Part shown: positions 13,552 through 32,006 of the stretch, in pieces
Numbering within the stretch: the stretch's first letter is position 1
Layout: each line of letters begins with the position of its first letter
Assembly: GCA_030765605.1 (NCBI GenBank)
Contig: JAVCCG010000143.1
Span: 1-32,585, forward strand
Source: Candidatus Alcyoniella australis
GTDB lineage: Bacteria > Lernaellota > Lernaellaia > JAVCCG01 > Alcyoniellaceae
Length of the DNA stretch: 32,585 bases
Direction: 5' to 3'
Program-made: the position numbers and the translations under genes
Notes under the pieces: generated by a model
What the model was told of the DNA's origin: nothing
Databases searched by the model: none
The model's input: the letters and a program-made list of their open reading frames with translations, nothing else

Positions 13552-14019
13552 TCAGCGCGCGAGCGGGGGCGGCCAGCCTTGGATGGTCGTGAGTCTCCAT
13601 ACGCTCTTTTGACGCTTGGCAATGAAGTAGAGGTCGTAGGCCAAGTTTTGCTGATGCCTGATCACGCCGACCTGAACGTTCTCAATGTGGGTCATCGAGA
13701 CGCCGATCTTGGCAGTGCCGCCGCCCTCTTCGATGCTGACGATCTCGTAGGAGGTCGGTCGGAAACCGGTGTAGAAATCCGAGAAGAACAGCTCCGACTT
13801 TTCGTCGATAAACAGATTGGGAAAGTCCTTGCGCGCCCGCGCCACCTGTTCGGCTTCGGCGCTGCCGGTGGCCGCCGCCGCCAGGTCTGGGTCGGACAGC
13901 GTAATGGCATAGGCCATGAAGGCCTCGACCGCGCCCGCGGGCGTCTTGGGACCAGCTTCGCCGCAGCCGACAAGCATGCACAACGCCAACGTCGCCAGGA
14001 CAACTGAAGCAGCTCTCAT
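13552..14019 (-). CDS. Small lipoprotein, NTF2-like candidate
   Basis: Putative lipoprotein of 155 aa: hydrophobic leader with lipobox LVGC (about residues 16-19), then a helical start TPAGAVEAFMAYAITLSDPDLA and alternating strands ELFFSDF, TSYEIVSIEE, TAKIGVSM, LAYDLYFIAKR and SVWRLTTI. Helices followed by a curved sheet that ends in a Trp-containing strand resemble the NTF2-like/DUF4878 type of lipoprotein, but this is by pattern only. Its ATG overlaps the TGA of the GH4 gene (ATGA), so it is the last gene of the six-gene minus-strand operon. No function can be given. Confidence 0.72.
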   Translation of the reverse strand: MRAASVVLATLALCMLVGCGEAGPKTPAGAVEAFMAYAITLSDPDLAAAATGSAEAEQVARARKDFPNLFIDEKSELFFSDFYTGFRPTSYEIVSIEEGGGTAKIGVSMTHIENVQVGVIRHQQNLAYDLYFIAKRQKSVWRLTTIQGWPPPLAR

Positions 14020-15296
14020 CGATCAGACCCCCTGAGATAGTCGAATCCGTTGACCTCGATCATATCATCCAATACATCTTCGGCGCGGCTCGCGGTCGGG
14101 CCGAGGGGATTGCAGGTCAGCGCCAGCAGCGCCTTATCGCGGCTGCGTTCGCAATGCGCCTCGATCGTCAACCGCTCGTAGGCTTTGGCCGGAGCGATAA
14201 GCGCCAGCAAAGCGTCCTGCAACGGCTCGGTCGCCACCGGCACTGCACCACTTGTATTTAGCTTGCAGCTTATCTCTACAACGGCCTGCTCGTCCAGGTT
14301 CGGAATCGCTCCGGCATTGGCCACGTTGACGATGTGCTCGCGTCCCAGGTCGTTGGTGATCGTCTCGATCAGATCCACGGCGATTTTGGAGTAGAACGCG
14401 CCGCCGCGGTTTTCCAGGGCCGCGGGCTTAGTGTGCTGCGCGGGGTCGCGATAGATTTCGAGCAGCTCCTGTTCGATCAGCATTACCTCTTGGGCGCGGG
14501 TCTTGTCCTTGGACTTGAGCTGTTCGAGGATCCGGTCGGTGTAGTAGTAGTAGCGGTTGTAGTACATCGGGAACGCGCCCAGGGAATCGATCAGCCAAGG
14601 GTCGTAGGCCATGTCCGGGATGTTCGCCGGGCCCTCGGCCGTGTCGAAGATCGCCCGCAGCTTGTCGGTATGGTCCTCGCCGCGCACCAACACCTTGCGG
14701 ATCCAACCCAGGTGGTTCAGGCCCACGAAGTCCAGATGAACCTCCGAGGGGTCGGCCTGCAGCACGGCGGCGACCAGCATCAGCGACTCGGTGGGTACGT
14801 TGCACAGGCCGATCGAATTGACTTTCCCGTGGTCGAGCAACGCCTGGGTAATTAGGCCTGATGGATTGGTGAAGTTGATCAGCCAGGCCTCGGGGCACAG
14901 CCGACGCATGTCCTCGCAGATCGACAGCGCCACGGGCAGGGTGCGCAACGCCTTGGCCATTCCGCCGACGCCGGTGGTCTCCTGGCCAATAAGCTCGTGG
15001 CGCAATCCCATCAGGATGTCCTGATGCCGCGCCGCCTGTTTGCCCACGCGGAACTGGCTGAGCACGAAGTCCGCGCCGTCCAATGCCCGCTCACGATCAA
15101 GGGTCGTGCTCACGCGTAGCGGTGATTTGTAGTGCTCGACCATTCGTTGACAGAACGGGCCGACGACCTCGAGTCGCTGCGGATCGATGTCCATCAATAC
15201 GATCTCGCTATCCGCGAACAGCTCGGCACGCTGCAGCATGCCGTCGATGATCTCGGGTGTGTACGTGCTTCCGCCGCCGATAACGGCAATCTTCAT
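14016..15296 (-). CDS. GH4-family NAD-dependent 6-phospho-glycosidase
   Basis: Family 4 glycosidase. These enzymes cleave glycosides by a redox elimination mechanism, with NAD+ oxidising C3 of the sugar and Mn2+ assisting. The Rossmann loop is IAVIGGGSTYTPEI at the N-terminus. The IGQETTGVGGMAKALRT stretch and INFTNPSG are typical, and the metal ligands are C165 (LCNVP) and H195 (LNHLGW). YYNRYYYY lies near residue 245. It is most like the 6-phospho-beta-glucosidase branch (CelF/BglT/LicH). No phosphotransferase or sugar-uptake genes are visible, so a phosphorylated import product is not guaranteed as substrate. It overlaps the zinc-ribbon gene upstream and the lipoprotein downstream by ATGA junctions, and a ribosome site AGGA is 9 bases before the ATG. 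426 aa is standard. Confidence 0.92.
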   Translation of the reverse strand: MKIAVIGGGSTYTPEIIDGMLQRAELFADSEIVLMDIDPQRLEVVGPFCQRMVEHYKSPLRVSTTLDRERALDGADFVLSQFRVGKQAARHQDILMGLRHELIGQETTGVGGMAKALRTLPVALSICEDMRRLCPEAWLINFTNPSGLITQALLDHGKVNSIGLCNVPTESLMLVAAVLQADPSEVHLDFVGLNHLGWIRKVLVRGEDHTDKLRAIFDTAEGPANIPDMAYDPWLIDSLGAFPMYYNRYYYYTDRILEQLKSKDKTRAQEVMLIEQELLEIYRDPAQHTKPAALENRGGAFYSKIAVDLIETITNDLGREHIVNVANAGAIPNLDEQAVVEISCKLNTSGAVPVATEPLQDALLALIAPAKAYERLTIEAHCERSRDKALLALTCNPLGPTASRAEDVLDDMIEVNGFDYLRGSDR

Positions 15297-16084
15297 CGTC
15301 TGTTTTCCTCTTTGTTCTGTCCGGGCGCGCTGTCGGCCGCCATCCCGTTGAATTGTAAATCGGTCTTGAAGTCAAAGGCGCTCATCAGCTCCAGCGTCTG
15401 CGTCAGTTTGTCACGGGAGACCAAAACGTGGAAGCCGTTGTTGAACACGCTGAATCCCAGGGCCGAAAGCTGGCGGCCCTCGCTGTGCGCCGCGATCCCC
15501 TCGGATTCGAGCAGCGCGACCAGGTGATCGGAGCGCGACATATTGTAAGTGCGATAGACCTCGACCATCGAGCCCCTGACCATCGGGCGCGTCTTGACCG
15601 ACAAACGCTCTCCCACTCCGCTGACAATAAAAAGCGCGACAGCGGCCAGCACCACCAGCGCACTGGCCGCCACCCAGCCCTCACCTTTGGTGGAGACGAT
15701 CAGCACGACGGTCATGATCGCGAACGGCAGCAGCATGCCCAGCTTGAGTTTGAAACCGGAACGCCGATCGTCCGCGGCAGAGTGTACATCGTAGAGTTCG
15801 CGGTCGCGGTCGGCCAGCCGATCGTGTTGGCACTGGGGACAGAAGCGCTCGTTGGGCGCGTACTCAAAGCCGCATTCCGGGCACTCCACCTGATACTCGC
15901 GGCCGCATTGCGGGCAGGAGCGATCCAGTTGGTCGGACTGGTTGCCGCATTCGAAGCAGGTCATGCCCTCGGCCTTGGACTTGTCGAACTCGATTTGAAA
16001 GCGGCAGCCGCAGCTCATGCAGATTGCGCTCTCCGCGCCGACCGGCGCGCCGCAGACCGGGCAGGGCAGCTTACGACGCTCCAT
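15293..16084 (-). CDS. Triple zinc-ribbon membrane protein with DUF2007 domain
   Basis: Three short zinc ribbons occupy the first 85 or so residues: CPVCG with CMSCG, CFECG with CPQCG, and CPECG with CPQCQ, giving twelve Cys in CxxC pairs. Two hydrophobic helices follow (about 112-130 and 138-157: GMLLPFAIMTVVLIVS and AASALVVLAAVALFIVSG). The C-terminal part, beginning VEVYRTYNMSRSDHLVALLESEGIAA, resembles the DUF2007 'putative signal transducing protein' domain (about 180-250). The protein is not recognisable as an enzyme. Zinc ribbons on the cytosolic side suggest protein or nucleic-acid contacts. Its ATG directly abuts the TAG of the Gfo/Idh gene (no spacer), and GAGGAG sits 3 bases before it. 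It sits in the middle of the sugar-enzyme operon, which makes an accessory or regulatory role there plausible. Confidence 0.78.
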   Translation of the reverse strand: MERRKLPCPVCGAPVGAESAICMSCGCRFQIEFDKSKAEGMTCFECGNQSDQLDRSCPQCGREYQVECPECGFEYAPNERFCPQCQHDRLADRDRELYDVHSAADDRRSGFKLKLGMLLPFAIMTVVLIVSTKGEGWVAASALVVLAAVALFIVSGVGERLSVKTRPMVRGSMVEVYRTYNMSRSDHLVALLESEGIAAHSEGRQLSALGFSVFNNGFHVLVSRDKLTQTLELMSAFDFKTDLQFNGMAADSAPGQNKEENRR

Positions 16085-17164
16085 CTACTCCTCTGGCGGT
16101 CGCCAGAGGTCCACCGGGAATTCGCACGGTGGCGGGTCGAACGGGAATTGCACCTTGGCGCCGATGCGCGCCGAGTGGTAGGCCGCGAGCATGATCAGCA
16201 GCACCTCGCGTCCGTCCTGCGCGGTCTCAAGCGGTTGCGCGTCGCCGCGCACGCAGGCGCTGAAGTGCTCGAACTCGCCCACGTAGCCGTGTTCGTACAC
16301 GTCGTCGACCACCGGCCGCGTCCAGCCGCGGGCATCGTCGGGCAGCATGCCGTAGCCGGGGATGCTGAAAACGTCGAGCCCGGGATTGCTGAACGATTCG
16401 GCGCGACCCACGCCCTTGTCGCCGAACAGCTCGAGGGTCGAGTCCATGCCGCCGTGTTTGGCCCAACTGGCCTCGGCCACGCCCAGCACGTTGCCCTCGA
16501 ACTCGATCTGCACGATGCAGTGATCGTCCAGCTGCGTGCGCTCGTGGTGCATTACAGTGTCGATCTGCGCGTACACGCTGCGCACCGCGGGCTTGTCCAG
16601 CAGCCAGCGAATGGTCTCGATGCTGTGGCAGCCCAAATCGACCATCGCGCCGCCGCCGGCCTCGCTGCGCGTAAAGAACCAATCGGAGTAGGGCCCGGCG
16701 TGCCGCTCGATCTGGCGCACCATGTAGGGCGATCCAAAGGCGCCCTCTGCGTGAAGCTGCTTGAGCCGTACGAAGCGCGGTACGAAGCACAGCTCCTCGG
16801 CGTACATCAGCAGCCGTTTATGTTCTGCGGCAGCGGCGATCAGCGCGTCGGCCTCGGCCAAGGTGTTGCACAACGGCTTCTCGAGCACCACGTGCTTGCC
16901 CGCGGACAGCGCCTCGAGCGCGATCGGCGCGTGGTACGCGTTGGGGAACGAGACGCAGACCACGTCGATGTCCTCGCGCTCTAGAATCCGATGGTAATCG
17001 TCGTACGCGTCGGGCACGCCCTTCCACTGGGCGAACATCTCGGCGTTGCTGTGCGAGCGGCTGGCCACGGCAGCGACCTGGGTCCCGGGCACGCGCGCCA
17101 GGGCGTCGAAGTGCGTGCGGCTGATCGAACCCGAGCCGATCAGGCCGTAGCGAACTTTTTGCAT
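16085..17164 (-). CDS. Gfo/Idh/MocA family NAD(P)-dependent sugar dehydrogenase
   Basis: Rossmann-fold oxidoreductase of the glucose-fructose oxidoreductase / inositol dehydrogenase family. The dinucleotide loop is GLIGSGSIS (residues 7-15). The family motif EKP is at 95-97, with the catalytic Lys96, and the substrate-side DLGCH (D176, H180) matches the DxxxH pair of active members. The start is ATG 17164: GGAGG with a 7-base spacer precedes it, and residues upstream in the open frame are low-complexity and would overlap the neighbour. 359 aa is the usual length. The gene follows the DegT aminotransferase by 29 bp and abuts the zinc-ribbon gene. Members oxidise a sugar or cyclitol hydroxyl to a ketone, the right substrate type for the neighbouring aminotransferase. 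Actual substrate unknown. Confidence 0.92.
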   Translation of the reverse strand: MQKVRYGLIGSGSISRTHFDALARVPGTQVAAVASRSHSNAEMFAQWKGVPDAYDDYHRILEREDIDVVCVSFPNAYHAPIALEALSAGKHVVLEKPLCNTLAEADALIAAAAEHKRLLMYAEELCFVPRFVRLKQLHAEGAFGSPYMVRQIERHAGPYSDWFFTRSEAGGGAMVDLGCHSIETIRWLLDKPAVRSVYAQIDTVMHHERTQLDDHCIVQIEFEGNVLGVAEASWAKHGGMDSTLELFGDKGVGRAESFSNPGLDVFSIPGYGMLPDDARGWTRPVVDDVYEHGYVGEFEHFSACVRGDAQPLETAQDGREVLLIMLAAYHSARIGAKVQFPFDPPPCEFPVDLWRPPEE

Positions 17165-17193
17165 CTTTCTTCCTCCTGTGCGAGCGAGGTTAT

Positions 17194-18462
17194 TTAAAAT
17201 CGGCTCTGGGCCTTGATCGGCTTGTCCAGCAGTTCGTCCTGGCAGTCGTGGATTTTGACGATCGCCTCCAGCAGCTGATCCATGTCGCTTTGGTCGCCCA
17301 TGAAGATCGGATAGTGCATCCACAGCGACTCGGCGTAGGCCGCGTGCTCGGCGTTGGGACAGCTGACCTGGTCGGCGGTCAGCTCATCGCCGTAACGCTC
17401 GCGGATCGTCGGGTAGTCGCTGGCGCGCAGTTTGAACAGCGCGTTTTGGTAGACCGGCACGTAGAAGTACGGGTCGTTTTCAAATCCCTCGGCAGTCAGC
17501 GCGGCGCTGAACTGATCGCGGGTGATCTCCCAGGCATCGGGCACGAACTTGAAAATGAACTGGTAGGCGTGCAGCCGCGTGATTCGCTCGTCCCACTTGA
17601 GGGTTTTTACATATCCCAGGCCGTCGAGCTTGTCGCTTAAGTAGCGGATGTTGCGCTCGCGGCGCAGGGTGTACTCCTCGAGCCGATCAAGCTGGCAGCA
17701 GAGCACCGCGCATTCCCACTCGGCCAGGCGGAAGTTCCAGCCGAAAAGCTGGTCCTCAAAGTTGCAGTAGAACTCTTCCTTGCGGCCGCAATTGATCAGG
17801 CTGTGGCACTTCTCCATCAGCTCGCGATCCGAGGTGATGATCATTCCACCTTCGCCCGCGGTGAGCAGCTTGCTCGACTGAAAGCTGAAGGTGCCCAGAT
17901 GGCCGATGGAGCCCGCGCCGCGGCCTTTCCACTGGCCGCCGTGGGCGTGAGCGCAGTCCTCGACCACGATCAGGTCGTGCTTTTCCGCGATTTCCATCAG
18001 CCGGTCCATGTCGGCAAAACGGCAGCCCAGATGCACGGGGACGATCGCTTTTGTCTTGTCCGTGATCTTGCGCTCAACATCGTCGGGATCAATGCAGTAG
18101 GTGTCGGGGTCCACGTCGGCGAAAACCGGCACGGCGTTGATCAGCGCCGGGGCCTGGCAGGTGGCGATCCAGGTATAGGGGGTGGTAATTACCTCGTCGC
18201 CGGCCTTGACCCCTGCGGCGCGCAGGGCAACGTAGATCGCGTCGGTGCCGTTGGAGCAGGCGATGCCGTACTTGGCGCCCTGGAATTGCGCGAAGCGCTC
18301 GTTGAGCTTGGTGGCCCAGGTGTTGGGCGAGGGGTATCCGCCCCAGTTGCCGCTTTCCAGAACCTCGATCAAGGCCTTTTTCTCGGCATCGGAACCTTGG
18401 GGGTATTCGGCGAACGGTTCGCTGCGAACCGGCGTGCCGCCGTTAATCGCCAGTTTGGACAT
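17194..18462 (-). CDS. DegT/DnrJ/EryC1/StrS aminotransferase
   Basis: PLP-dependent sugar aminotransferase (aspartate aminotransferase fold). It starts KLAINGGTPVRSEPF, a beginning shared with the scyllo-inosose aminotransferase and AHBA-synthase branch. Other motifs are ACSNGTDAIYVALRAAGV (cofactor phosphate site), EVITTPYTWIAT, VVEDCAHAHGG with the PLP-ring Asp, and the lysine SFQSSKLLTAGEGG (K198, Schiff base). 422 aa is normal for this branch. The ATG has GGAGGAG 4 bases upstream and lies 20 bases inside the 3' end of the preceding lipoprotein gene. With the Gfo/Idh dehydrogenase next to it, an oxidation-transamination pair acting on a sugar or cyclitol is likely. No nucleotidyltransferase or glycosyltransferase is visible here to confirm an NDP-sugar route. 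Confidence 0.93.
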   Translation of the reverse strand: MSKLAINGGTPVRSEPFAEYPQGSDAEKKALIEVLESGNWGGYPSPNTWATKLNERFAQFQGAKYGIACSNGTDAIYVALRAAGVKAGDEVITTPYTWIATCQAPALINAVPVFADVDPDTYCIDPDDVERKITDKTKAIVPVHLGCRFADMDRLMEIAEKHDLIVVEDCAHAHGGQWKGRGAGSIGHLGTFSFQSSKLLTAGEGGMIITSDRELMEKCHSLINCGRKEEFYCNFEDQLFGWNFRLAEWECAVLCCQLDRLEEYTLRRERNIRYLSDKLDGLGYVKTLKWDERITRLHAYQFIFKFVPDAWEITRDQFSAALTAEGFENDPYFYVPVYQNALFKLRASDYPTIRERYGDELTADQVSCPNAEHAAYAESLWMHYPIFMGDQSDMDQLLEAIVKIHDCQDELLDKPIKAQSRF

Positions 18463-20368
18463 GCTGCTCCTCCGTTTCTACGAGCCGGGCGCGGTGTCCC
18501 GGAGATGAGTCCCAGGCGAAACTTTCGCCGGGCCGCTCGATCTCGCAAAGGATCTTGTACAGCCCCAGCAGGCTCGAGATGTTGTGCTGAACGTAGTCGA
18601 TGCGGATGTCGTAATTATCGGTAGATTCGAAAAAACCGCCCAACGCCTTGTAGGGGTAACGCAGGTAGATCGCGTTAAAGCGGTTGAACTGGCAACGCTG
18701 TTGGAAAACGGCCGAGAGCTTGAGCGCCTCGAGCCAAGCGGACCCATCGTCGCCCGCGTACTGAGACAGGCGATAGGCAGCGGCCAGCCCCTCGGCGCGT
18801 GTAGCCGTGGGAGTAGACTGGGCGCGTCCGGAGAAGATTCCGTTGAGCTCCGGGTAGCGGTTGTCGCGCGACTGCTTGTCCACGATGCTGCGCGCCAGGC
18901 GATAGACGTGGGTCTTGTAGTGCTCGTGCGGCGCGATGCGGTACAGCTCGTTAAGCCCGATCATCAGCCAGTGGTCGGCCAGCAGCCGCTGGTCGGGCAC
19001 GTCCTTGTCGCGCACGTTGATCAGCCAGTCCGCGCCGCGCACCGCGGTTTCGATGTAGCGTTGGTCGGGCTCGAACTGGTAGAGCCGCACCAGACCCAAA
19101 ATCGCTTCGCCCGGGTAGTACATCGAATCGAACTGCTCGTCGGGTCCGGATTCCAGGTCGTACTTGCTGACGAAGTGGCCGTCGGGCTCCTGGGCCGCCA
19201 TCAGGTATTGGGCGAGCTGACGGGCGCGGCCGATAAACTGGGTATCGTGGCTAAGCTCGGTGTACTTGCAGATCGCGATCAACGCCAGGCCGTTGCCGCC
19301 GAGCTTGACCACCTGTCGCGATTGGCCGCGCTTCATTTTGGTCGAGACCACGGCGTAATAGGCCTCGTCCGCGAGTTTGACCGGCTCGACCTTGGTCATC
19401 AGGAAGCCCAGGGCGTCGCGCGCCTTGTCGCGCAGTCGCACATCGCCGCTGACCTGGTACAGCTCCATCATTGCGTAGATCGTGCCCGCGTGGCGCAGCA
19501 GGTTGTACGATGGGGACTGCTTGTCCAGCTGCGGACGGTAGGTGTAGACGAACTTGCCCTCGTCGTCCGTGATCGTAATCAGATAGTCGCCGCCGTTTTT
19601 GCAGGCGCGTTGGAGTCCGGCGCTGGATGTGTCCAGCTCGAGCGGCAGGCCGCGCGCGTAGACCACGAGGCGCGAGCTGTCGTCGGGATGCTCGGAAAAA
19701 TCGACGAAATCGACGAAACAGAACTGAAGCCCCTCGACCGTGCCGTCGAGGCAGTCGTTCATGATCTTGCCGTAGACCCGGATCTCGAGATAATTCTTAA
19801 AGGCGTTTTTCCGACGGCGGCCGTCGTCGCCCATCAGGTAGTGGCTGAGCACCTCCTCGGGCGTGAAGACCATCAACGGTCTGGTGTCGAACAGCAGCCC
19901 CTGGCGACTCATGTCATAACGATACTTGCGGACCGAGCCCCAGGCCTGCTGCGAACCGGTGGAGTCGACCACCGCGATTCTAATCCAGCCGCCAACGAGC
20001 GAGCGTTGACGATCCATCCGCTTGAGCACCGAACAGGCCGCGACCACCGATTCGTAGATGTTTTGCTCGTCGCCGTGGGCCACCAGCGCGGGCAGTTTAT
20101 CCAAAGCCACGCTGATTACCAGCGGTCGGCGACCGCGCTTGAACAGCTCGGGGAATTCATCGCGCTTGGGCGGCTGGGGCGTGCCGTACAGCTCGCCGCG
20201 AGCCACTTGGAGCAGGTAACTCATCTGGGCCTGGTCCAGCTCCAGCGACGTAAGCTCGTAGAATCCGCCTTGCCCCAGGCGGCATTGCGGAGGTCCGCAG
20301 CTCAGCGTACCCAGGGCGCAAAGTACGGCCAGAGCAATGAAAATTACTATAAATCGGAGGTGTTTCAT
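18443..20368 (-). CDS. Large lipoprotein with helical-toroid-like C-terminal domain
   Basis: Unrecognised 641-residue lipoprotein. The leader IVIFIALAVLCALGTLSC ends in a lipobox Cys at residue 24. Residues 35-260 are mixed alpha/beta and contain RPLVISVALDKLPALVAHG and the aromatic CFVDFVDF. From about 290 to 620 there are repeated helix pairs with similar starts: HAGTIYAMMELYQ, GGNGLALIAICKYTE, YPGEAILGLVRLYQ, DHWLMIGLNELYR, RAEGLAAAYRLSQ and VQHNISSLLGLYK. Six or seven such hairpins suggest an (alpha/alpha) barrel like those of glycosidases, epimerases and lyases acting on polysaccharides. The conserved Glu/Asp/His at each hairpin start would line the central cavity. It is the first gene of the six-gene operon and its 3' end overlaps the DegT start by 20 bases. 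An enzyme on extracellular glycans is a guess. Confidence 0.7.
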   Translation of the reverse strand: MKHLRFIVIFIALAVLCALGTLSCGPPQCRLGQGGFYELTSLELDQAQMSYLLQVARGELYGTPQPPKRDEFPELFKRGRRPLVISVALDKLPALVAHGDEQNIYESVVAACSVLKRMDRQRSLVGGWIRIAVVDSTGSQQAWGSVRKYRYDMSRQGLLFDTRPLMVFTPEEVLSHYLMGDDGRRRKNAFKNYLEIRVYGKIMNDCLDGTVEGLQFCFVDFVDFSEHPDDSSRLVVYARGLPLELDTSSAGLQRACKNGGDYLITITDDEGKFVYTYRPQLDKQSPSYNLLRHAGTIYAMMELYQVSGDVRLRDKARDALGFLMTKVEPVKLADEAYYAVVSTKMKRGQSRQVVKLGGNGLALIAICKYTELSHDTQFIGRARQLAQYLMAAQEPDGHFVSKYDLESGPDEQFDSMYYPGEAILGLVRLYQFEPDQRYIETAVRGADWLINVRDKDVPDQRLLADHWLMIGLNELYRIAPHEHYKTHVYRLARSIVDKQSRDNRYPELNGIFSGRAQSTPTATRAEGLAAAYRLSQYAGDDGSAWLEALKLSAVFQQRCQFNRFNAIYLRYPYKALGGFFESTDNYDIRIDYVQHNISSLLGLYKILCEIERPGESFAWDSSPGHRARLVETEEQHVQTGD

Positions 20369-24157: not shown

Positions 24158-25414
24158 ATGTGCTCCAAGCGCATATCGACCTTGCTGCTCGCGCTGATGC
24201 TCTGCGCCTCTTTGGCGATCATCGCCTGCGATCGGGATGGCGATGATGATGACGATCAGGCGGACGATGACTCCAACGATGACGACGCAACCGGAGACGA
24301 CGACAGCGGCGGAGACGACGACATCGTGGACGACGACGACGATCTGTTTCCACCCGACGAGCAGCAGCCGCTGTACGAGAAAGGTCAAATCCTCGAGCCG
24401 GACTCGCTTGAGTGCTTCAACTTCGAGACCGGGGAGTATCAACTCAACTGCAATCACCACGGATCGACCATCGCACAGCTGCCCGAGGGCTCGATGGCCG
24501 TGGTCTGGTATCACGGTGTTGCGGAGAAGTCGCCCGACGCGCGCATCGTCTGGTCGCGCCTGGCCCCTGGGGAGCGCGAATGGCCTTGGCCCGAGGTGCT
24601 CTACGACGAGCCGCTGCGCTCCGAGGGGAACCCCGCGCTGTGGGTTCACGAGGACGGCACGCTCTACGTGTTCTTTGTCACGATCTTCGGCGAGGGTTGG
24701 CCCCAGTCGTATCTGCGGCTGATCCGCTCGTTTGACAACGGCGCGACCTGGGACAACCCGCTGGAGCTGCGCGAGCGCTATTGCTGGATGGCGCGCCATC
24801 GGCCGGTGCGGCTGGGCAACGGCGAGTTGCTGCTGCCGCTGTACAACGAGTGCCTGGCCTACCCGGTATTTATCCGCTCCACCGACGACTTCGCCACATG
24901 GACCGAGGAGGCGCACCTGAACTTCGAGTATTACCGCCAACACCCGGGCCAGATCCAACCCGCGTGCATTGTGCTCGAGGGCGACGTGATCACGGCGCTG
25001 ACCCGCGACGGCATGCCCTCGAATCGCATCAAGCGCATGATCAGCCTCGACGGCGGCCTTAATTGGGGCCCGAGCATCCCGCTGGACCTGCCCAACAGCG
25101 GCACGTCGATCGACCAGGTGCGGTTGCTCGACGGCAGCGTGGTGGTGGTCTTCAACAACAGCCAGGAGCGGCGCTTTCCGTTGAGCGTGGCCCTGAGCCA
25201 CGACGGCGGCGAGACCTTCGACGCGATCCGCAACATCGACGACGAGTGCGAGGGGGAGGGCTGCTCCTACGCCTATCCCTCGATCGCGCAGAACACGCTG
25301 GACGGCACGATCTGGGTCTCCTACAGCGTGGGCCGCTCGACCATCGGCTGGGTGCAGTTCAACGAGCGCTGGCTGATGGACGGCGATGAGCAGCCGAACA
25401 TCCCGTCAAAATAA
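24158..25414 (+). CDS. Asp-rich-linker lipoprotein, sialidase/BNR propeller
   Basis: Lipoprotein of 418 aa with lipobox AIIAC (C24), a DDDDD-rich linker to about residue 67 and then a six-bladed propeller. Asp-box (BNR) repeats are visible as SFDNGATWDNP, STDDFATWTE, SLDGGLNWGPS and SHDGGETFDA. The start NHHGSTIAQLPEGSMAVVWYHG and the EGNPALWVHEDGTLYVFF stretch resemble the exo-alpha-sialidase / BNR_2 family. Arginines that would form the sialic-acid triad cannot be assigned with confidence, so hydrolase versus binding protein stays open. GGGAGA precedes the ATG by about 7 bases. It is the second gene of a two-gene unit and converges on the SDR gene. The shared anchor and linker of the two proteins suggest both sit on the outer face of the cell. 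Confidence 0.82.
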   Translation: MCSKRISTLLLALMLCASLAIIACDRDGDDDDDQADDDSNDDDATGDDDSGGDDDIVDDDDDLFPPDEQQPLYEKGQILEPDSLECFNFETGEYQLNCNHHGSTIAQLPEGSMAVVWYHGVAEKSPDARIVWSRLAPGEREWPWPEVLYDEPLRSEGNPALWVHEDGTLYVFFVTIFGEGWPQSYLRLIRSFDNGATWDNPLELRERYCWMARHRPVRLGNGELLLPLYNECLAYPVFIRSTDDFATWTEEAHLNFEYYRQHPGQIQPACIVLEGDVITALTRDGMPSNRIKRMISLDGGLNWGPSIPLDLPNSGTSIDQVRLLDGSVVVVFNNSQERRFPLSVALSHDGGETFDAIRNIDDECEGEGCSYAYPSIAQNTLDGTIWVSYSVGRSTIGWVQFNERWLMDGDEQPNIPSK

Positions 25415-25437
25415 AACGACCCCGGATTGCTCCGGGG
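25411..25437 (-). terminator. Terminator between convergent propeller and SDR genes
   Basis: Arms 25420-25426 and 25431-25437 (CCCCGGA and TCCGGGG) form a perfect 7-bp hairpin with a TTGC loop. On the minus strand it is followed by TCGTTTTATTTT, giving a good terminator for the SDR gene. The plus strand has only CCGTT after it, so it may act weakly there. Confidence 0.75.
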
Positions 25438-25460
25438 CCGTTACTGCGCACGAACTCTGG

Positions 25461-26270
25461 TCAGTCGCGCTTGGCCAGCAGCATGCTGGCCACGGTGTTT
25501 ACGCCGCTGTGCAGCAGGGGCAGGAAGCGCGAGTAGAAGCCCAAGAGGTTGATCGGGCTGACCATCTCCACCGCCTTGTCTTTGCGAACCGCCTTGAAGA
25601 TGATCCGGCCCACGGTCTTGGGCGAATTGCTGTAGAACGGCAGCAGCTTCATCGACATCTTGGCGCCCCAGGTCTCGCCCTGAACCTCGTCGTAGAACCC
25701 GGTGTTGACCATGAACGGGTAGACCGTGGTGACCTCGATGTTGTGCTTGGACAGCTCGAACCCCAGCACCTCGGAGTATCCGGCCATGCCAAGCTTAATA
25801 GAGGCGTAGGCGCCCCAGGTTGGCAGCAGGAAGAACGCCTGGCCCGAGCTGAGGTTGACGATGTGGCCGCTGTTGCGCTCGATCATGCTCGGCAGCAGGG
25901 CATAGATGAAGTGCAGCGGACCCATGAAGTTGACGTCGATCAGCTTGCGCCACTGCTTAAGCGTGGTGTCCTTGATCTCGCCGTTGTGGCCGATGCCCGC
26001 GTTGTTGATCAGTACGTCCACGCCGCCGAGCTTGGCGATTACGTCCTTGGCCGTTTTATCGACCGCGCTTTTTTTCGAGACGTCGGTAACGTAGGTGTGG
26101 ACCTTGGCGCCAAGCTCCTCGATCTGCTTGGCCGCCGCGTCCAGTCCGGGCTCGTCGATGTCGGTGAGCACCAGCACGCTGCCGGCCTTGGCAAAGTACT
26201 CCGCAGTGCACAGGCCGATGCCGTGGGCGCCGCCGGTGATCAGGACCACCTTATCCTTGAGCTTCTTCAT
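25461..26270 (-). CDS. Short-chain dehydrogenase/reductase (SDR)
   Basis: Classical SDR using NAD(P)H. Cofactor loop TGGAHGIG (12-19), Asp-containing second strand VLVLTDID, NNAG motif (near 88-91), and Y155xxxK159 in YASIK with the preceding catalytic Ser in LSSG. The C-terminal 60 or so residues (PINLLGFYSRFLPLLHSGVN) are longer and more hydrophobic than in the compact SDRs, as seen in membrane-associated members acting on lipids. Substrate unknown. The start at 26270 has GGAGG upstream (10-base gap). The open frame continues 22 codons further but lacks support. A separate strong promoter lies upstream, and a terminator lies downstream, so it is transcribed alone, not with the glycyl radical operon before it. 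Confidence 0.9.
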   Translation of the reverse strand: MKKLKDKVVLITGGAHGIGLCTAEYFAKAGSVLVLTDIDEPGLDAAAKQIEELGAKVHTYVTDVSKKSAVDKTAKDVIAKLGGVDVLINNAGIGHNGEIKDTTLKQWRKLIDVNFMGPLHFIYALLPSMIERNSGHIVNLSSGQAFFLLPTWGAYASIKLGMAGYSEVLGFELSKHNIEVTTVYPFMVNTGFYDEVQGETWGAKMSMKLLPFYSNSPKTVGRIIFKAVRKDKAVEMVSPINLLGFYSRFLPLLHSGVNTVASMLLAKRD

Positions 26271-26350
26271 CGACTGGGATCCTCCGGAAAAATTGCTGAA
26301 CAACCGGGATTTGCCGATCTCCCCGGCGGAAATCACTACTGACGCAATGG

Positions 26351-26443: not shown

Positions 26444-27382
26444 TCAGCGGTTGACCGAGGCCTCGAAGCCCGCGTCCGTAAGCTGGTCGATCACGCGTTG
26501 CAGCGCGTCCTCGCCAAGCTCGGGGGCCGTGAAGAATTCGTCCGCACGGCCGACCTTGGCCCACTTGCCGCGCGCCAGGCTGTTGTAGGGCATCAGCTCG
26601 ATTGCGCCGACATATCCCGTCTTGCGCAGGATGGCGATGAACCCCTCGATGGTCTGTTGGTCGATGTTTGCGCCGGGGATCAACGGAATGCGCGGGATCA
26701 CGCGCGACGCTCCGGCGCTGCGTACGATCTGGCCAAAGCGCTCGATGATCGGCCCGTTGGATACGCCGGTGAGGCGTTCGTGCTCGGCCGGGTCGGGATG
26801 TTTGAGGTCGAACAAGAACAGGTCGCAAAGCTCGATCAGACGTTCGCCGATCTCCGCGGAGAACAGGCCGCAGGTCTCCAGCGCAACGTGTACGCCCGCG
26901 GTTTTCAATCCTTGGATCAGCTCGATCAGGAATTTATGCTGCATGGTCGGCTCGCCGCCGCTGATCGTCACGCCGCCGCCGGACTGATCGTAGAACGGCT
27001 TGTCGCGCAGCACGCGCTCGATGATCTGCGCGGCGTCGGCTGTAAAGCCGATCAGTTCAAGCGCCTTGTTCGGGCACTGCTTTACGCAATTGCCGCAGGC
27101 AGTGCAGCGTTCGACATCGTAACGACGTGTGCCGTCCACAATGCTCAGCGCATTATTTTGGCAGACCTCAACGCACTTGCCGCAGACAGTGCAGCGTTCG
27201 GCGATCAGCCCGATCTCGGGTTCGCGTCGCCAGGACTCGGGGTTGTGGCACCAGCGGCAGCGCAGGGGACAGCCCTTGAAAAAGATCAGGGTGCGGATTC
27301 CAGGACCGTCGTACAGCGCGTAGTGCTGGACGTCGAACAGCACGCCGCTGCCGCAGACCGGTTGCTTGCCGATCGCGCTCAA
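26444..27382 (-). CDS. Glycyl-radical-enzyme activating protein (radical SAM)
   Basis: Installs the glycyl radical on the neighbouring enzyme by reductive cleavage of S-adenosylmethionine. The radical-SAM cluster motif is GCPLRCRWC (C38, C42, C45) after YDGPGIRT. A ferredoxin insert carries two [4Fe-4S] motifs, [11 protein letters not shown] (64-74) and [12 protein letters not shown] (93-104), the arrangement of the activases for diol-dehydratase- and decarboxylase-type glycyl radical enzymes rather than of PFL activase, which lacks the insert. SGGEP (SAM binding) follows. The start is a TTG that directly follows the TAG of the alcohol dehydrogenase gene. The ribosome site is weak, so coupling by reinitiation is likely. 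312 aa is normal. It is the last gene of the operon. Confidence 0.94.
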
Positions 27383-28558
27383 CTACAGCCTTTCGCTCAG
27401 CACGTGGATCAGCTCGTCCACGGTGAGCTGCACCGGGTTGTTCTTGTTGCCGGTAGCCTGCGCGATCTGCGGCAGGTCCTGCTCGGTCACGCCGTACTGG
27501 GAAAGTCGCGGCACCTGCAGCGCTTGGGTCCACTCGTGCAACTTTTGATTGAGCATCCGTACGCGCAAGCCCACATCCTTCTCTACCAGGCCGACCAACA
27601 GCGCGCCGATATCGCCGTAGCGCTTTAGCGCTGGGCTGCCCTTACCGCGTTGCGAGATCAGCTTGTCGGTGCTAATGGCGGTGACCGCGGCCAGCAGCGA
27701 GCCGCAGGCCGCGCCGTGGGGCACGTCGAACGCGGCGCCCAATGATCCGGCCAACCCGTGGACAGTGCCTAGCCCGGCATTGGCCAACGTGATCCCAGAG
27801 AGCAGGGCGGCGTAGGCCATCATCCCGCGCGCCTCCAAATCGTCGCCGTGCTCGAATGCGCGCACCAGGCCGTGGCGCACGCGCTGCATGCCGCTGAGCG
27901 CCAGGGCGTCGGTCAACGGCGTGGCCTGGGTCGAGATGTACGATTCCAGCAACTGGGTGAACGCGTCGAGTCCCGAGGCTGCGGTGATCTCCGGAGGACA
28001 GCTGCAAGCCAACTGCGGGTCGAGCAGCGCCACGTCCGGCACGTAGTTGTCGTGGCGTAGCGACTTCTTAAAACCGCCGGGTCCCACGCGGCTGAGCACC
28101 GCGTTCTTGGTCGCCTCCGATCCGGTGCCCGCGGTGGTCGGCGCGGCGATCAGCGGCAGCCTGGTACCCGGAGGGGGTTTAGTTCCAACGTCCTCAAGAT
28201 AGTCGACCACCGATCCGGAAGTTGTCAGCATAGCGCTGATCGCCTTGGCCGCGTCGATCACGCTGCCGCCGCCCACGGCGAGCACCACGTCGATCGACTC
28301 GCCGCGCAAGCGCTGGACCTGCTCGTCGCAAAACTCGGGAGTCGGCTCGCCGGAGACAATCGCGTGCGCGTGTTTGATGTTTAGCAGATCAAGCCCGTCG
28401 ATCAGTTGTTGCCAACAACTACCGCGCGATGCAAAGCCGCGGCCGGTGACCAGCAGCACGCAACGGCCGTATGAGGCAACAAGCTGCGGCGCCTGAGACA
28501 AAGTGCCGGGGCCGAAGACGATCCGCGGAATTCTGGCAAAGCAAAACGGTGCGATCAT
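27383..28558 (-). CDS. Iron-containing alcohol dehydrogenase
   Basis: NAD(P)-dependent group III alcohol dehydrogenase. The nucleotide-binding GGGSVIDAAKAI and PTTAGTGSEATKNAV are typical. Metal-site positions are D198, Q202, H267 (VHGLAG) and H281 (VPHGAA), with spacing matching FucO (D196, H200, H263, H277). The second ligand is Gln where His is usual. Other Fe-ADH-like proteins have such a change, so it does not prove inactivity, but metal use may differ. In glycyl-radical operons an enzyme of this family reduces the aldehyde or keto product to the alcohol. Here the gene follows the glycyl radical enzyme by 28 bp and abuts the activase. 391 aa is normal. Confidence 0.93.
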   Translation of the reverse strand: MIAPFCFARIPRIVFGPGTLSQAPQLVASYGRCVLLVTGRGFASRGSCWQQLIDGLDLLNIKHAHAIVSGEPTPEFCDEQVQRLRGESIDVVLAVGGGSVIDAAKAISAMLTTSGSVVDYLEDVGTKPPPGTRLPLIAAPTTAGTGSEATKNAVLSRVGPGGFKKSLRHDNYVPDVALLDPQLACSCPPEITAASGLDAFTQLLESYISTQATPLTDALALSGMQRVRHGLVRAFEHGDDLEARGMMAYAALLSGITLANAGLGTVHGLAGSLGAAFDVPHGAACGSLLAAVTAISTDKLISQRGKGSPALKRYGDIGALLVGLVEKDVGLRVRMLNQKLHEWTQALQVPRLSQYGVTEQDLPQIAQATGNKNNPVQLTVDELIHVLSERL

Positions 28559-28586: not shown

Positions 28587-31178
28587 TCAACAAACAGCGC
28601 AGTGCTCGGTGCGCGAAATGACCTCGTCCTGAATCTCGCGGCCCAGGTCGACGAAATAGGTGCTGTAGCCGCCGACCTTGACGATCACGTCGCGGAACGT
28701 TTCCGGGTCGTGCTGCGCCGCGCGCAACATCTCGGCCGAGGCCACGGTGGGCTGAAGTTGCGCTCCGCCCATGGCGAAGTAGCTGCGCAGCAACGAGCAG
28801 AATTTGTCGCGCGTCTCCGTGGACTGACCGATGGCGCTGGGGTGCAGCTTGAGGTTGACCGCGCAGCCGAGCAATCCGCTGAAGTCGATGGCCGCGACCG
28901 AGCGCAACACCGCGGTGGTTCCGGCGCGCTCGACGTTGTAAGGATTGCAGCTCGAGGCATAGGGCGTGGCAGCCCGGCGGCCGTCGATCGTGGCCATCGA
29001 GGCCCGTCCGTCGATGGTGTGCGAGGTCATGCTGTTGATGAACGGCACGAACGGCCCGCCGCGGAAATCGCGGTATTTGTCCGTGGAAGCGAAGATCATC
29101 GCGGCCACTCGCGCGGCCAGTTCGTCGCTCTGCGCTTCGCCGTTGCCCCACTTGCCCTCCAAGCCGTCCACCAGTTGCGCGACGCGCTCGTGCCCCACGA
29201 AGTTGGCGTCGATTGCCGTGAGCAGCTCGGGCAGGGTCAGGTCGTGGCGCTCGAACACCAGCTTGTTGATCGTGTACAACGAGTCGATCACGTTGGCAAC
29301 CGAGTTGATCATGTTGATGCCGCTGAAATTGTACGTCGCGCCGCCGCGCGTGATGTCGCGGCCGTTTTCCAGGCAGCCTTGCATCAGCGCCGAGATGTGC
29401 GGCGCGGGAAGATGCTCGGAGAAGATCCGGTCGCGCAGGTTCGAGGACTCGGCGTTGAGCATCACCGCGTGGTCGAGTTGGATCTCGAACGCCTTGAGCA
29501 GTTGCTCGATATTTTCAAAAGATGACGGATCGCCGGTCTGCGGGCCCACGCCGCGCACCGGGCCGATCAGCGTCATCGCATCGCCGTTGCGCAGTGCCGC
29601 GTCGAACACGCGCGAGAGCAGCAGACCCGAGAAGCTGATGCCGCCGCTCTTGCCCGGGCAGATCAGGTCGGTGCAGCCGGTGATCGCGTAGTCCAGGGCA
29701 TCGGGGTCGGAGAAGCCGCGGCTGCGCATCGCGTCGACGAACACCTCGTCGTTCATCAACGAGAGGTTGGAGCACGAGTTGTGCATCAGCTCGGCAGCCG
29801 CAAGGTAAAGTTGATTGGGAGTGTCGCGGTGCACGCGCAGCACAATCGAGGTGATGGTCTTGGAGCGGTCGGCCGCCTCGAGCAGCAGGTAGGTCAGCTC
29901 GTTGGTCGCGTCCTGGCCATCGCTGGTTTGGCCGCCGACGGTGATCGGCGTCGAACCCTCGTAGCGCAAATAGAACTTGCCCAAAATGTTCGATTCGGGG
30001 CGCAGGTTGTGGGTCATGATCTTGAGCATCAGCTCTTGGCAAAGCTCGGAAGCCTGCTCGTGGGTGATGTCGCCGTTTTCGAGGTCGCGCCGAAAGTAGG
30101 GGATAAGCATTTGATCGAGGCGGCCCGGGGCGTGGACGTTGGTGATGTTGGCCAGCTCCACAGCGGTGTGAGTGCTCCAAAGCCCCTGCACAGCCTCGCG
30201 GAAACCGCGCGCCGGATGCAGCGGAGAGCGGCGGGCAGCCTTGAGCATCGTGCGCAGCACCTCGCGACGCTCAGGGTCTGTGCAGGCTTGCAGATTGTGT
30301 TCGAGTTGCTGGACCAGTCGTTCGCAAAAGCAGATCAGGCCGTCGAACGCCGAGAGCAGCGATTGCAAAAATACCCGGCGTTCGCTATCGCCGTTTGAAA
30401 CCGACTCGAGCTGTGCGCTTGCCTCGCGGCGCATCTGCAGCAGTCCGCGCTCGAGCACAGTTGCGTAATCCAAAATCAAGTGCCCCTGGTAGGTGGCGAT
30501 CGAGGCGCTGGTGGAGACGATCAAGGCCTGCTTAGTCGGCGTGGCCACCAGCGAACGGACGAAGTCCGCGACCTCGTCGTTGACCAATCCGGAGTTGCGC
30601 AGCTCGCGGTCCACCGCGTCGGCAATGGTCCGGCCCTTCCAATAGGGGAGAAGATCACGGCGCAGCTCGCGGGAATTCTCGGGGCTGATCTCGAAGCGGT
30701 TGATTTCGCGCCGCTCAAGGGTATCCAGTCCGACGTTGAGCGGATTGCCGCCCAGTGAGGCGTTGAATTTAAACGTGCGGACCAGGCCGCGGATTCCGTT
30801 TTGACGAACCAGATAGCCCAGCAGTCGCACGGTAGAGCCAAGCTGAAAGCGCAGCATGGCAGGACGGGTGAGCTCGCAGGCGAGAATGTTGTTGAACAGA
30901 CCGCGCTCGATATCAAGCGGCAGTCCCAGGAAATGCTCGGTCCAATTGCCGGCGATGCGGTCGTCCGGATCGATGTTGTGGGTCATGTTGCGATAGACGT
31001 GGAGCATCGATTCGGCAACGCGAAGCCCCGGCTGCACGTCGGGACTATCGCGCTCGCGCCACTTGGATGTGAATAGGCGCGCACGCTCGATCGAGATCTG
31101 CGGCGTCTGGGTCTGATAGCGGCGACGCATGCGCGTGATGCGCTCGCAGGCCAGGTCGTGGGGCGGTTGAACGCTCAT
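28587..31178 (-). CDS. Glycyl radical enzyme, substrate unknown
   Basis: Oxygen-sensitive radical enzyme of the PFL/diol-dehydratase superfamily, 863 aa. The C-terminal glycyl loop is IVKVGGYSTYFVDLG with the radical Gly at 837, 26 residues from the end, followed by EVISRTEH. The PFL-type barrel has TIDGRRAATP near its end and the catalytic Cys502 in GCTDL. In most lyases and dehydratases of the family this motif is GCVE, the Glu acting as base, whereas here the acid is Asp504. In glycerol/propanediol dehydratases a His-Ser pair precedes SPGRFDQ. Here the aligned positions before APGRLDQ are N347 and V348, with H349 next. These changes argue against glycerol dehydratase. Its ATG overlaps the GntR gene stop (ATGA). 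The alcohol dehydrogenase and activase follow. Confidence 0.93.
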   Translation of the reverse strand: MSVQPPHDLACERITRMRRRYQTQTPQISIERARLFTSKWRERDSPDVQPGLRVAESMLHVYRNMTHNIDPDDRIAGNWTEHFLGLPLDIERGLFNNILACELTRPAMLRFQLGSTVRLLGYLVRQNGIRGLVRTFKFNASLGGNPLNVGLDTLERREINRFEISPENSRELRRDLLPYWKGRTIADAVDRELRNSGLVNDEVADFVRSLVATPTKQALIVSTSASIATYQGHLILDYATVLERGLLQMRREASAQLESVSNGDSERRVFLQSLLSAFDGLICFCERLVQQLEHNLQACTDPERREVLRTMLKAARRSPLHPARGFREAVQGLWSTHTAVELANITNVHAPGRLDQMLIPYFRRDLENGDITHEQASELCQELMLKIMTHNLRPESNILGKFYLRYEGSTPITVGGQTSDGQDATNELTYLLLEAADRSKTITSIVLRVHRDTPNQLYLAAAELMHNSCSNLSLMNDEVFVDAMRSRGFSDPDALDYAITGCTDLICPGKSGGISFSGLLLSRVFDAALRNGDAMTLIGPVRGVGPQTGDPSSFENIEQLLKAFEIQLDHAVMLNAESSNLRDRIFSEHLPAPHISALMQGCLENGRDITRGGATYNFSGINMINSVANVIDSLYTINKLVFERHDLTLPELLTAIDANFVGHERVAQLVDGLEGKWGNGEAQSDELAARVAAMIFASTDKYRDFRGGPFVPFINSMTSHTIDGRASMATIDGRRAATPYASSCNPYNVERAGTTAVLRSVAAIDFSGLLGCAVNLKLHPSAIGQSTETRDKFCSLLRSYFAMGGAQLQPTVASAEMLRAAQHDPETFRDVIVKVGGYSTYFVDLGREIQDEVISRTEHCAVC

Positions 31179-31930
31179 GGCTTTCTCTCCAAAACGCGGC
31201 GTAGGGTCTGATCGTCGAGCAGCATTCGTTGCTCAAAGATTTTTTTGGCGCGCTTGGCGTTGCCCTCGCGCAGGGCTTTGACCAGTCGGCCGTAGACATC
31301 GGCCGTGACCTCGGGCCCTTCCTCGATCTGGTAGTAGAGCACGCTGACCTTTTCGAAAACCTCGCGCACCGTGTTGAGCATGTAGAGCAGCACGCGATTG
31401 CCCGTACCTTGGGCCAAGAGGTGAAAGAATTCGAAATCAAGTCCGCCATGGAGACGCTGGGCAGTGTCTTGACGGGGATAGCGATCGACCAGCTGTTGCA
31501 GACCCTCCAGCGTGGCCTCGTCGATGCGCTCGGCCGCCAGGTCGATCAAGGCCAGGGCGAAGATCCGCCGCACCTGGGCCAGGTCGAGCATCAGGGCGCT
31601 GTCCAGGCCGATCCCCTCGGCCAGCAGGAATTTTACAAGTTCCAGACCCCAGCTATGGGAACTGGGCTGTACGAACACGCCGTCCCCGGGTCTGATCAGC
31701 ACTAGGCCCATGGACTCCATGCGGCGCAACGCTTCGCGCAAACCGGTGCGGTTGACCTCTAGACGCTGGGCCAGCTCGCGTTCGGCGGGCAGTTTGTCTC
31801 CGGGAGCAAACGCGCCGGAGATCACCGCTTCGGCGAGTTGAACCACAACCTCGTCCGATACGCGCGCGCGACGCACGGGCCGCAGTTGCGGCGCGGGTCG
31901 GCCGTTGTTCTCGATCAGCTCTTGTGGCAT
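31175..31930 (-). CDS. FadR-type GntR-family regulator (FCD domain)
   Basis: Transcription factor with an N-terminal winged helix-turn-helix (about residues 22-90: SDEVVVQLAEAVISGAFAPG, LPAERELAQRLEVNRTGLREAL, GLVLIRPGDGVFVQ) and a C-terminal all-helical FCD ligand domain (about 105-245) with the DFEFFHLLAQ motif that often holds a metal and a small organic acid. The start is set at 31930 because the upstream open frame runs through the promoter and operator found here. ATG 31945 is the alternative. GGAAAAA lies near the start. It is the first gene of the operon and its stop overlaps the start of the glycyl radical enzyme. Likely represses its own operon until a metabolite related to the pathway binds. 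Confidence 0.9.
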   Translation of the reverse strand: MPQELIENNGRPAPQLRPVRRARVSDEVVVQLAEAVISGAFAPGDKLPAERELAQRLEVNRTGLREALRRMESMGLVLIRPGDGVFVQPSSHSWGLELVKFLLAEGIGLDSALMLDLAQVRRIFALALIDLAAERIDEATLEGLQQLVDRYPRQDTAQRLHGGLDFEFFHLLAQGTGNRVLLYMLNTVREVFEKVSVLYYQIEEGPEVTADVYGRLVKALREGNAKRAKKIFEQRMLLDDQTLRRVLERKP

Positions 31931-31941
31931 CGATTTTTCCG

Positions 31942-31976
31942 CCATTGGATTATTGGTACAACCAGTGGACCAATGG
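31942..31976. promoter_or_regulatory. FadR/GntR-type operator
   Basis: A nested palindrome: outer arms CCATTGG (31942-31948) and CCAATGG (31970-31976), plus an inner perfect TGGTACAACCA (31954-31964), which fits the FadR-subfamily consensus TNGTNNNACNA. It begins right after the -10 box and covers the expected transcription start, the right place for autorepression by the GntR protein encoded just downstream. Confidence 0.7.
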
Positions 31977-32006
31977 AGAATAGTCAATCGTCAGCAGAAT
32001 TGTCAA
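31977..32006 (-). promoter_or_regulatory. Promoter of the GntR-glycyl radical operon
   Basis: On the minus strand, a perfect TTGACA (32001-32006), an 18-base spacer and TATTCT (31977-31982). The start point would fall near 31970, inside the operator. This placement also rules out the most upstream start codon of the regulator's open frame (31987), which would precede transcription. Confidence 0.65.

Follow-up and report, generated by a model that had tools for sequence, protein, structure and literature searches.

The solved structures closest to the predicted model of P0001, the glycyl radical enzyme (GRE) described here, are those of glycerol dehydratase (GD), propanediol dehydratase (PD), HypD, and CutC, all of which are eliminases. 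GD of Clostridium butyricum (1r8w/1r9d) and PD (5i2g, 9rco) are B12-independent and, like P0001, are encoded in operons with an activase and an iron-containing alcohol dehydrogenase (Fe-ADH). They share the fold (TM 0.85/0.93), the thiyl Cys, and the equivalent of His164 with P0001 but are only ~30% identical to it, and Glu435 is replaced by Asp, H281-S282 by N-V, and both Y339 and D447 by Ser. HypD likewise has the same eliminase fold, Cys, and His but, at ~30% identity, carries Asp-Ala in place of N347-V348 and Glu in place of D504. CutC yields the highest sequence score for P0001 among PDB entries, and HpsG ((2S)-3-sulfopropanediol dehydratase, 6lon) is its top NCBIfam equivalog (NF048011, 392 bits); both, however, have Glu at the D504 position, and His233 corresponds to Asp in CutC and Gln in HpsG. 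Pyruvate formate-lyase (PFL) differs in having adjacent Cys-Cys, where P0001 has G501-C502.

The precedent for a GRE acting on sugar polyols is provided by YbiW and PflD, the 1,5-anhydroglucitol/anhydromannitol-6-phosphate C-O lyases, whose pathway includes a downstream aldolase (PMC12441222). These enzymes are the model that the P0001 family most resembles in gene context, although their neighbors are PTS and FsaA genes rather than the GPH symporters, FGGY kinases, and DeoC or KDPG aldolases discussed below. YbiW and PflD are ~24-31% identical to P0001, carry Glu at the Asp504 position, and belong to a separate clade.

An intact GRE operon

P0001 is encoded in the window (the whole analyzed stretch of 32,585 nucleotides) by a reading frame with zero internal stops (Table 1). 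The protein matches two Pfam domains, PFL-like at 438 bits and Gly_radical at 68 bits, and the best solved fold for its AlphaFold2 model (pLDDT 92.4, pTM 0.93) is GD 1r8w. The Cys motif reads ITGCTDLICPG, with the thiyl Cys502 and Asp504; N347-V348-H349 is followed by A350-P351-GRLDQ; and the glycyl loop, IVKVGGYSTYF, contains the radical glycine, Gly837. A sequence-only reading of this DNA had singled out the glycyl loop, the radical-relay Cys502, and the GCTDL motif with Asp504, all of which are present in the intact ORF and align with GD. P0001 has the PFL-like barrel, thiyl Cys, C-terminal glycyl loop, and cognate radical SAM activase by which the GRE superfamily is recognized and, judging from its sequence, is an intact, oxygen-sensitive GRE from a family without a studied member.

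Table 1 Features of the P0001 operon and selected P0001 codons (window positions)
Feature	Position	Strand	Basis and remarks
FadR/GntR-family regulator (GntR + FCD)	31175..31987	minus	Pfam; 4-bp overlap with GRE start
P0001, GRE, 863 aa	28587..31178	minus	ORF, Pfam, AlphaFold2 model
Fe-ADH	27383..28558	minus	Pfam; 28 bp after GRE
GRE-activating radical SAM enzyme	26444..27382	minus	TIGR02494, 310 bits (cutoff 174); 0 bp after Fe-ADH
Short-chain dehydrogenase/reductase (SDR)	25461..26336	minus	adh_short, 178 bits; 107 bp after activase
H233 codon (GD H164), family-invariant	30480..30482	minus	Alignment
N347-V348-H349 codons (GD H281-S282-I283)	30132..30140	minus	Alignment
R393 codon (GD K323), family-invariant	30000..30002	minus	Alignment
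S409 codon (GD Y339), Ser throughout family	29952..29954	minus	Alignment
G501-C502-T503-D504 codons (thiyl Cys and Asp replacing catalytic Glu)	29667..29678	minus	Alignment to GD C433/E435
S515 codon (GD D447), Gly/Ser/Ala in D-type	29634..29636	minus	Alignment
G837 codon, glycyl radical site	28668..28670	minus	Alignment (GD G763)

The genes on the minus strand are arranged in the order FadR/GntR regulator, GRE, Fe-ADH, activase, and SDR, the last of which is probably the end of the operon. The activase carries CxxxCxxC and ferredoxin-type cluster cysteines. Apart from the activase and Fe-ADH that had been recognized previously, the SDR and the FadR-type regulator are additional members of the operon. 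The FadR-GRE-activase arrangement recurs at locus L077 of G002 as well as at three loci of the UBP15 group (L042/L048/L054). Of the accessory subunits by which benzyl/alkylsuccinate synthases and arylacetate decarboxylases are recognized, no small subunit is encoded in the P0001 operon. A plus-strand ORF (25386-26342), which gave no hit when scanned, is a shadow of the minus-strand SDR gene. Elsewhere in the window, a possible sugar operon (13552-20368, minus strand) encodes a GH4 glycosidase, a GFO/IDH/MocA oxidoreductase, a DegT aminotransferase, and a GH127-like protein.

P0001 falls under every NCBIfam GRE-enzyme cutoff, scoring 374 bits for trans-4-hydroxyproline dehydratase, 349 for CutC, and 392 for HpsG against cutoffs of 1000-1100, and 447 bits for TIGR01774 against a cutoff of 678. 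The profiles of benzyl/alkylsuccinate synthases and arylacetate decarboxylases score P0001 far lower than the eliminase profiles. These scores, the Gly-Cys in place of Cys-Cys, and the replacement of at least five GD pocket residues bear out the earlier warning against annotating P0001 as glycerol dehydratase or PFL. The genome of the window contains a large set of seven GREs (G000 contigs C143, C109, C64, C79, C35, C94, and C78), none of which reaches the TIGR01774 cutoff.

A GRE subfamily with Asp in the active site

Relatives of P0001 were collected by scanning one genome for each of 84,980 species and by whole-genome searches. The scan patterns, S[CA]NPYNV[ED] and IVKVGGYS, favor family members, so that the edges of the family are defined by the search. 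The scan produced 64 loci, nearly all coding for relatives of P0001, and the combined family comprises ~70 proteins with 43-59% identity to P0001. All named records come from metagenome-assembled genomes, many of them from Lokiarchaeota; the other hosts include Helarchaeota, Dehalococcoidia, Desulfobacterales, Myxococcota, Hydrogenedentota, Phycisphaerae, Actinomycetota, Spirochaetales, and UBP15. A search of plasmids yielded GREs at ≤33% identity only, and a search at the phylum level took in 7 genomes, the phylum of the window being tiny. The family is far from every solved GRE: the branch that splits it from other GREs spans 2.1 changes per site in the first tree and 1.6 in the tree with characterized references (bootstrap/SH-aLRT 100/100).

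The family splits into two types. The E-type members share the motifs GCVE and NLHCFGR[LM]DQ, whereas the D-type members, including P0001, combine GC[VT]D (or SCVD/SCAD) with N-V-H. Asp occupies position 504 in all 44 D-type proteins (the fragment L074 included), for which reason chance or an alignment slip was dropped as an explanation, and N347, V348, and H349 are each kept in 41 of 43. The D-type clade is supported by an SH-aLRT of 96 in the first tree and by bootstrap/SH-aLRT of 99/99 in the tree with references; its earliest branch consists of P0001, L009, and L010 (SH-aLRT of the trio, 100). The anticipated separate cluster sharing Cys-x-Asp and Asn-Val-His was thus recovered. The loss of the usual catalytic Glu might indicate a degenerate or noncatalytic GRE, but we regard this as highly improbable: the remaining GRE hallmarks and the Asp are maintained in bacteria and archaea alike, and an activase adjoins P0001.

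The E-type loci usually follow the order TetR, GRE, SDR, ADC-like, and acyl-CoA dehydrogenase, mostly without an adjoining activase. This conserved cluster was seen in L081 (G000 C109), L080, L015, L020, L027, L030, L053, L061, and L067; URO-D-type methyltransferase and B12-binding (corrinoid) proteins are encoded beside the E-type GREs of L025, L032, L065, L066, and L067. The window SDR (adh_short) and the epimerase-like E-type SDRs fell together under single-linkage clustering, an equivalence that was discarded because the families differ.

All seven characterized GREs that were aligned (GD, PD, HypD, CutC, YbiW, PflD, and HpsG) have Glu at the D504 position, in agreement with the contrast originally drawn between P0001 and characterized enzymes. 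Glu also prevails in ~50 further GRE loci, taken from both related and unrelated genomes; one HypD-like protein among them has GCVT, and the PFL-type proteins have CCVS. Conversely, Cys-x-Asp is found in two uncharacterized GREs outside the D-type: L028, a member of the E-type clade, and L109 (G040), an unrelated protein with GCVD that appears to represent a separate origin. Cys-x-Asp is, by these alignments, rare but recurrent and not exclusive to the D-type, and Asp for Glu is a conservative change seen at least three times in uncharacterized GREs. L106, L121 (G106), and L113 (G084) may form a further, distinct group of uncharacterized GREs; their Cys motif is CMRW or CMVP, and the Cys is not preceded by Gly.

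Pocket residues were mapped to GD (1r8w/1r9d) through sequence alignment, using the positions that we take to line the pocket in the GD structure. C433, E435, and G763 correspond to C502, D504, and G837, and H281, S282, and I283 to N347, V348, and H349, matching the replacement of the GD/PD His-Ser pair, with His at 349, that had been proposed by eye. Other changes are Y339 to S409, D447 to S515, Y640 to N715, and S642 to M717. H233 and C502, the counterparts of GD H164 and C433, are unchanged and invariant in the family, as are R393, R405, and N391. The side chains are shorter at most of the altered positions and may leave room for a larger substrate, and the P0001 pocket is predicted to differ from that of every studied relative compared. 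The missing His-Ser pair was dropped as a sign of novelty in itself: the same positions hold Asp-Ala in HypD, Thr-Gly in CutC, Ser-Ser in PflD, and Ala-Ile in HpsG. Because the pair is not general among GREs, its absence argues only against GD, PD, and YbiW. P0001 could instead be a dehydratase of small diols of the glycerol or 1,2-propanediol kind with altered residues, its short aldehyde product being reduced by the adjoining Fe-ADH, as suggested by the GRE, Fe-ADH, activase gene order, the GD fold match, and the retention of H233 and C502. This appears improbable, given that GD H281, S282, Y339, D447, Y640, and S642 are all replaced, that identity to GD is ~30% with all NCBIfam scores below cutoff, and that no microcompartment or diol genes were seen near P0001.

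Sugar metabolism genes near D-type GREs

Genes for GPH sugar symporters and FGGY kinases recur near D-type GREs, as do those for KDPG aldolase in Lokiarchaeota and for DeoC in two bacteria. At least one of these genes lies within 10 kb of the GRE in 22 of 39 D-type loci compared with 1 of 30 E-type loci (Fisher p 1.5e-6, uncorrected for shared ancestry, the loci being nonindependent). Linkage of genes with few copies per genome is a stronger point than these counts. KDPG aldolase is present in one copy in eight of the nine Lokiarchaeal genomes and in two in the ninth, and in each genome a copy is located beside the GRE, at a distance of 1.1-5.6 kb. Similarly, the bacterial genomes of L021 and L022 have a single DeoC gene, which lies within the GRE operon together with genes for Fe-ADH, FGGY kinase, and GPH symporter. 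The chance that a single-copy gene falls within ~20 kb in a genome of 3-6.5 Mb is <1% per gene. KDPG aldolase and DeoC both split deoxy compounds, which are the expected products of a GRE dehydratase acting on a polyol or sugar acid.

The gene surroundings of the relatives closest to P0001 are sparse or of another kind; no kinase, aldolase, or sugar transporter gene adjoins P0001 itself or these relatives in G002, G004, and G030. The closest relatives of the window Fe-ADH nevertheless come from genomes with D-type GREs: its identity to the Fe-ADHs of L016, L021, L022, the genome of L035, and G004 is 45-51% (45-49% for those inside three sugar-linked GRE loci), compared with at most 232 bits (35%), and mostly <150 bits, for other Fe-ADHs in the searched genomes. 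Although the window operon has no kinase or aldolase gene, this kinship ties it to the sugar-linked loci.

A less probable but serious alternative is that P0001 uses C-O or C-C chemistry or decarboxylation on a compound that is hydrophobic, acyl, or aromatic. The sister E-type clade lies in a nonsugar setting, beside acyl-CoA dehydrogenase and ADC-like genes as well as SDR and sometimes URO-D and corrinoid protein genes, which speaks against the sugar reading; the D-type GRE of G030 (L079) is flanked by genes judged by eye to be thiolase-like and acyl-CoA synthetase-like, so that substrates may vary inside the D-type clade; and the window regulator belongs to the FadR family. However, FadR/FCD regulators act on genes for a variety of organic acids and sugars, the majority of D-type loci are sugar-linked, and the window Fe-ADH groups with those of sugar loci. 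The D-type GREs most likely act as radical C-O lyases on a substrate of the sugar or polyol type.

A candidate radical sugar or polyol eliminase

For P0001 itself, we propose with moderate confidence an active GRE eliminase (a dehydratase-type C-O lyase) belonging to the Cys-x-Asp subfamily, with a polyhydroxylated substrate of the sugar or polyol type. The co-encoded activase would generate the Gly837 radical, which would oxidize Cys502 to a thiyl radical; the thiyl would then remove H from one of the carbinol carbons in the substrate. Asp504 would accept the proton of that carbinol hydroxyl, the part played by Glu in known eliminases; His233 would protonate the leaving hydroxyl on the next carbon; and the return of H from Cys502 would give a deoxy-aldehyde or deoxy-ketone. 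In IseG, a conserved Glu deprotonates the substrate OH, a role extended by analogy to other GRE C-O/C-N lyases (PMC6453916). The Fe-ADH and/or the SDR might then reduce or interconvert the carbonyl products, and in the relatives, phosphorylation by an FGGY kinase could be followed by cleavage of the deoxy compound by an aldolase of the DeoC or KDPG type.

The suggestion in the sequence-only reading that this may be an undescribed reaction class was not supported: the fold, the kept His/Cys/carboxylate layout, the neighbors of the relatives, and the closeness to eliminase structures favor known C-O elimination chemistry. New chemistry that requires Asp rather than Glu is, in our estimate, quite unlikely. 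Although Asp is invariant in the 44 D-type proteins and the pocket differs from the aligned GREs at many positions, Asp and Glu alternate within the family (L028), and Asp is found in the unrelated L109, so the swap alone need not alter the reaction type. The P0001 group is a new, coherent, uncharacterized GRE subfamily in which an Asp version of the known eliminase site is conserved. Neither a function for this subfamily nor an NCBIfam name was found, and no Cys-x-Asp GRE or deoxyribose-linked GRE is described in the open-access literature that was searched, where a paper could be missed.

A whole GRE subfamily of Asgard archaea and ~10 bacterial groups emerges, known here from metagenome-assembled genomes alone. 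If the sugar-eliminase reading is true, these organisms, which are of deep evolutionary interest, would gain an anaerobic carbohydrate route. Lokiarchaeal GREs have been taken to hint at the degradation of alkanes or aromatics (PMC8163825); Asgard GREs cited for hydrocarbon activation should be sorted into members of the P0001 family and true alkyl/benzylsuccinate synthases. The linkage to the only KDPG aldolase or DeoC of a genome makes the substrate question testable. More tentatively, and possibly at best, the D-type GREs could form a new class of radical sugar/polyol dehydratases with an Asp base that convert, for example, a pentitol to 2-deoxyribose or an aldonate to a 2-keto-3-deoxy acid. 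FGGY kinase and DeoC or KDPG aldolase would then complete an unrecognized “radical deoxy-sugar” fermentation common to anaerobic bacteria and Lokiarchaeota, with tandem GRE pairs in some lineages. Pairs of D-type GREs, in tandem or in the same operon and served by a single activase, were observed in L014, L018, L021, L022, and L033, and could form a heteromer or catalyze a two-step reaction; in one member of the pair, the residue ahead of the radical Cys is Ser instead of Gly (SCVD).
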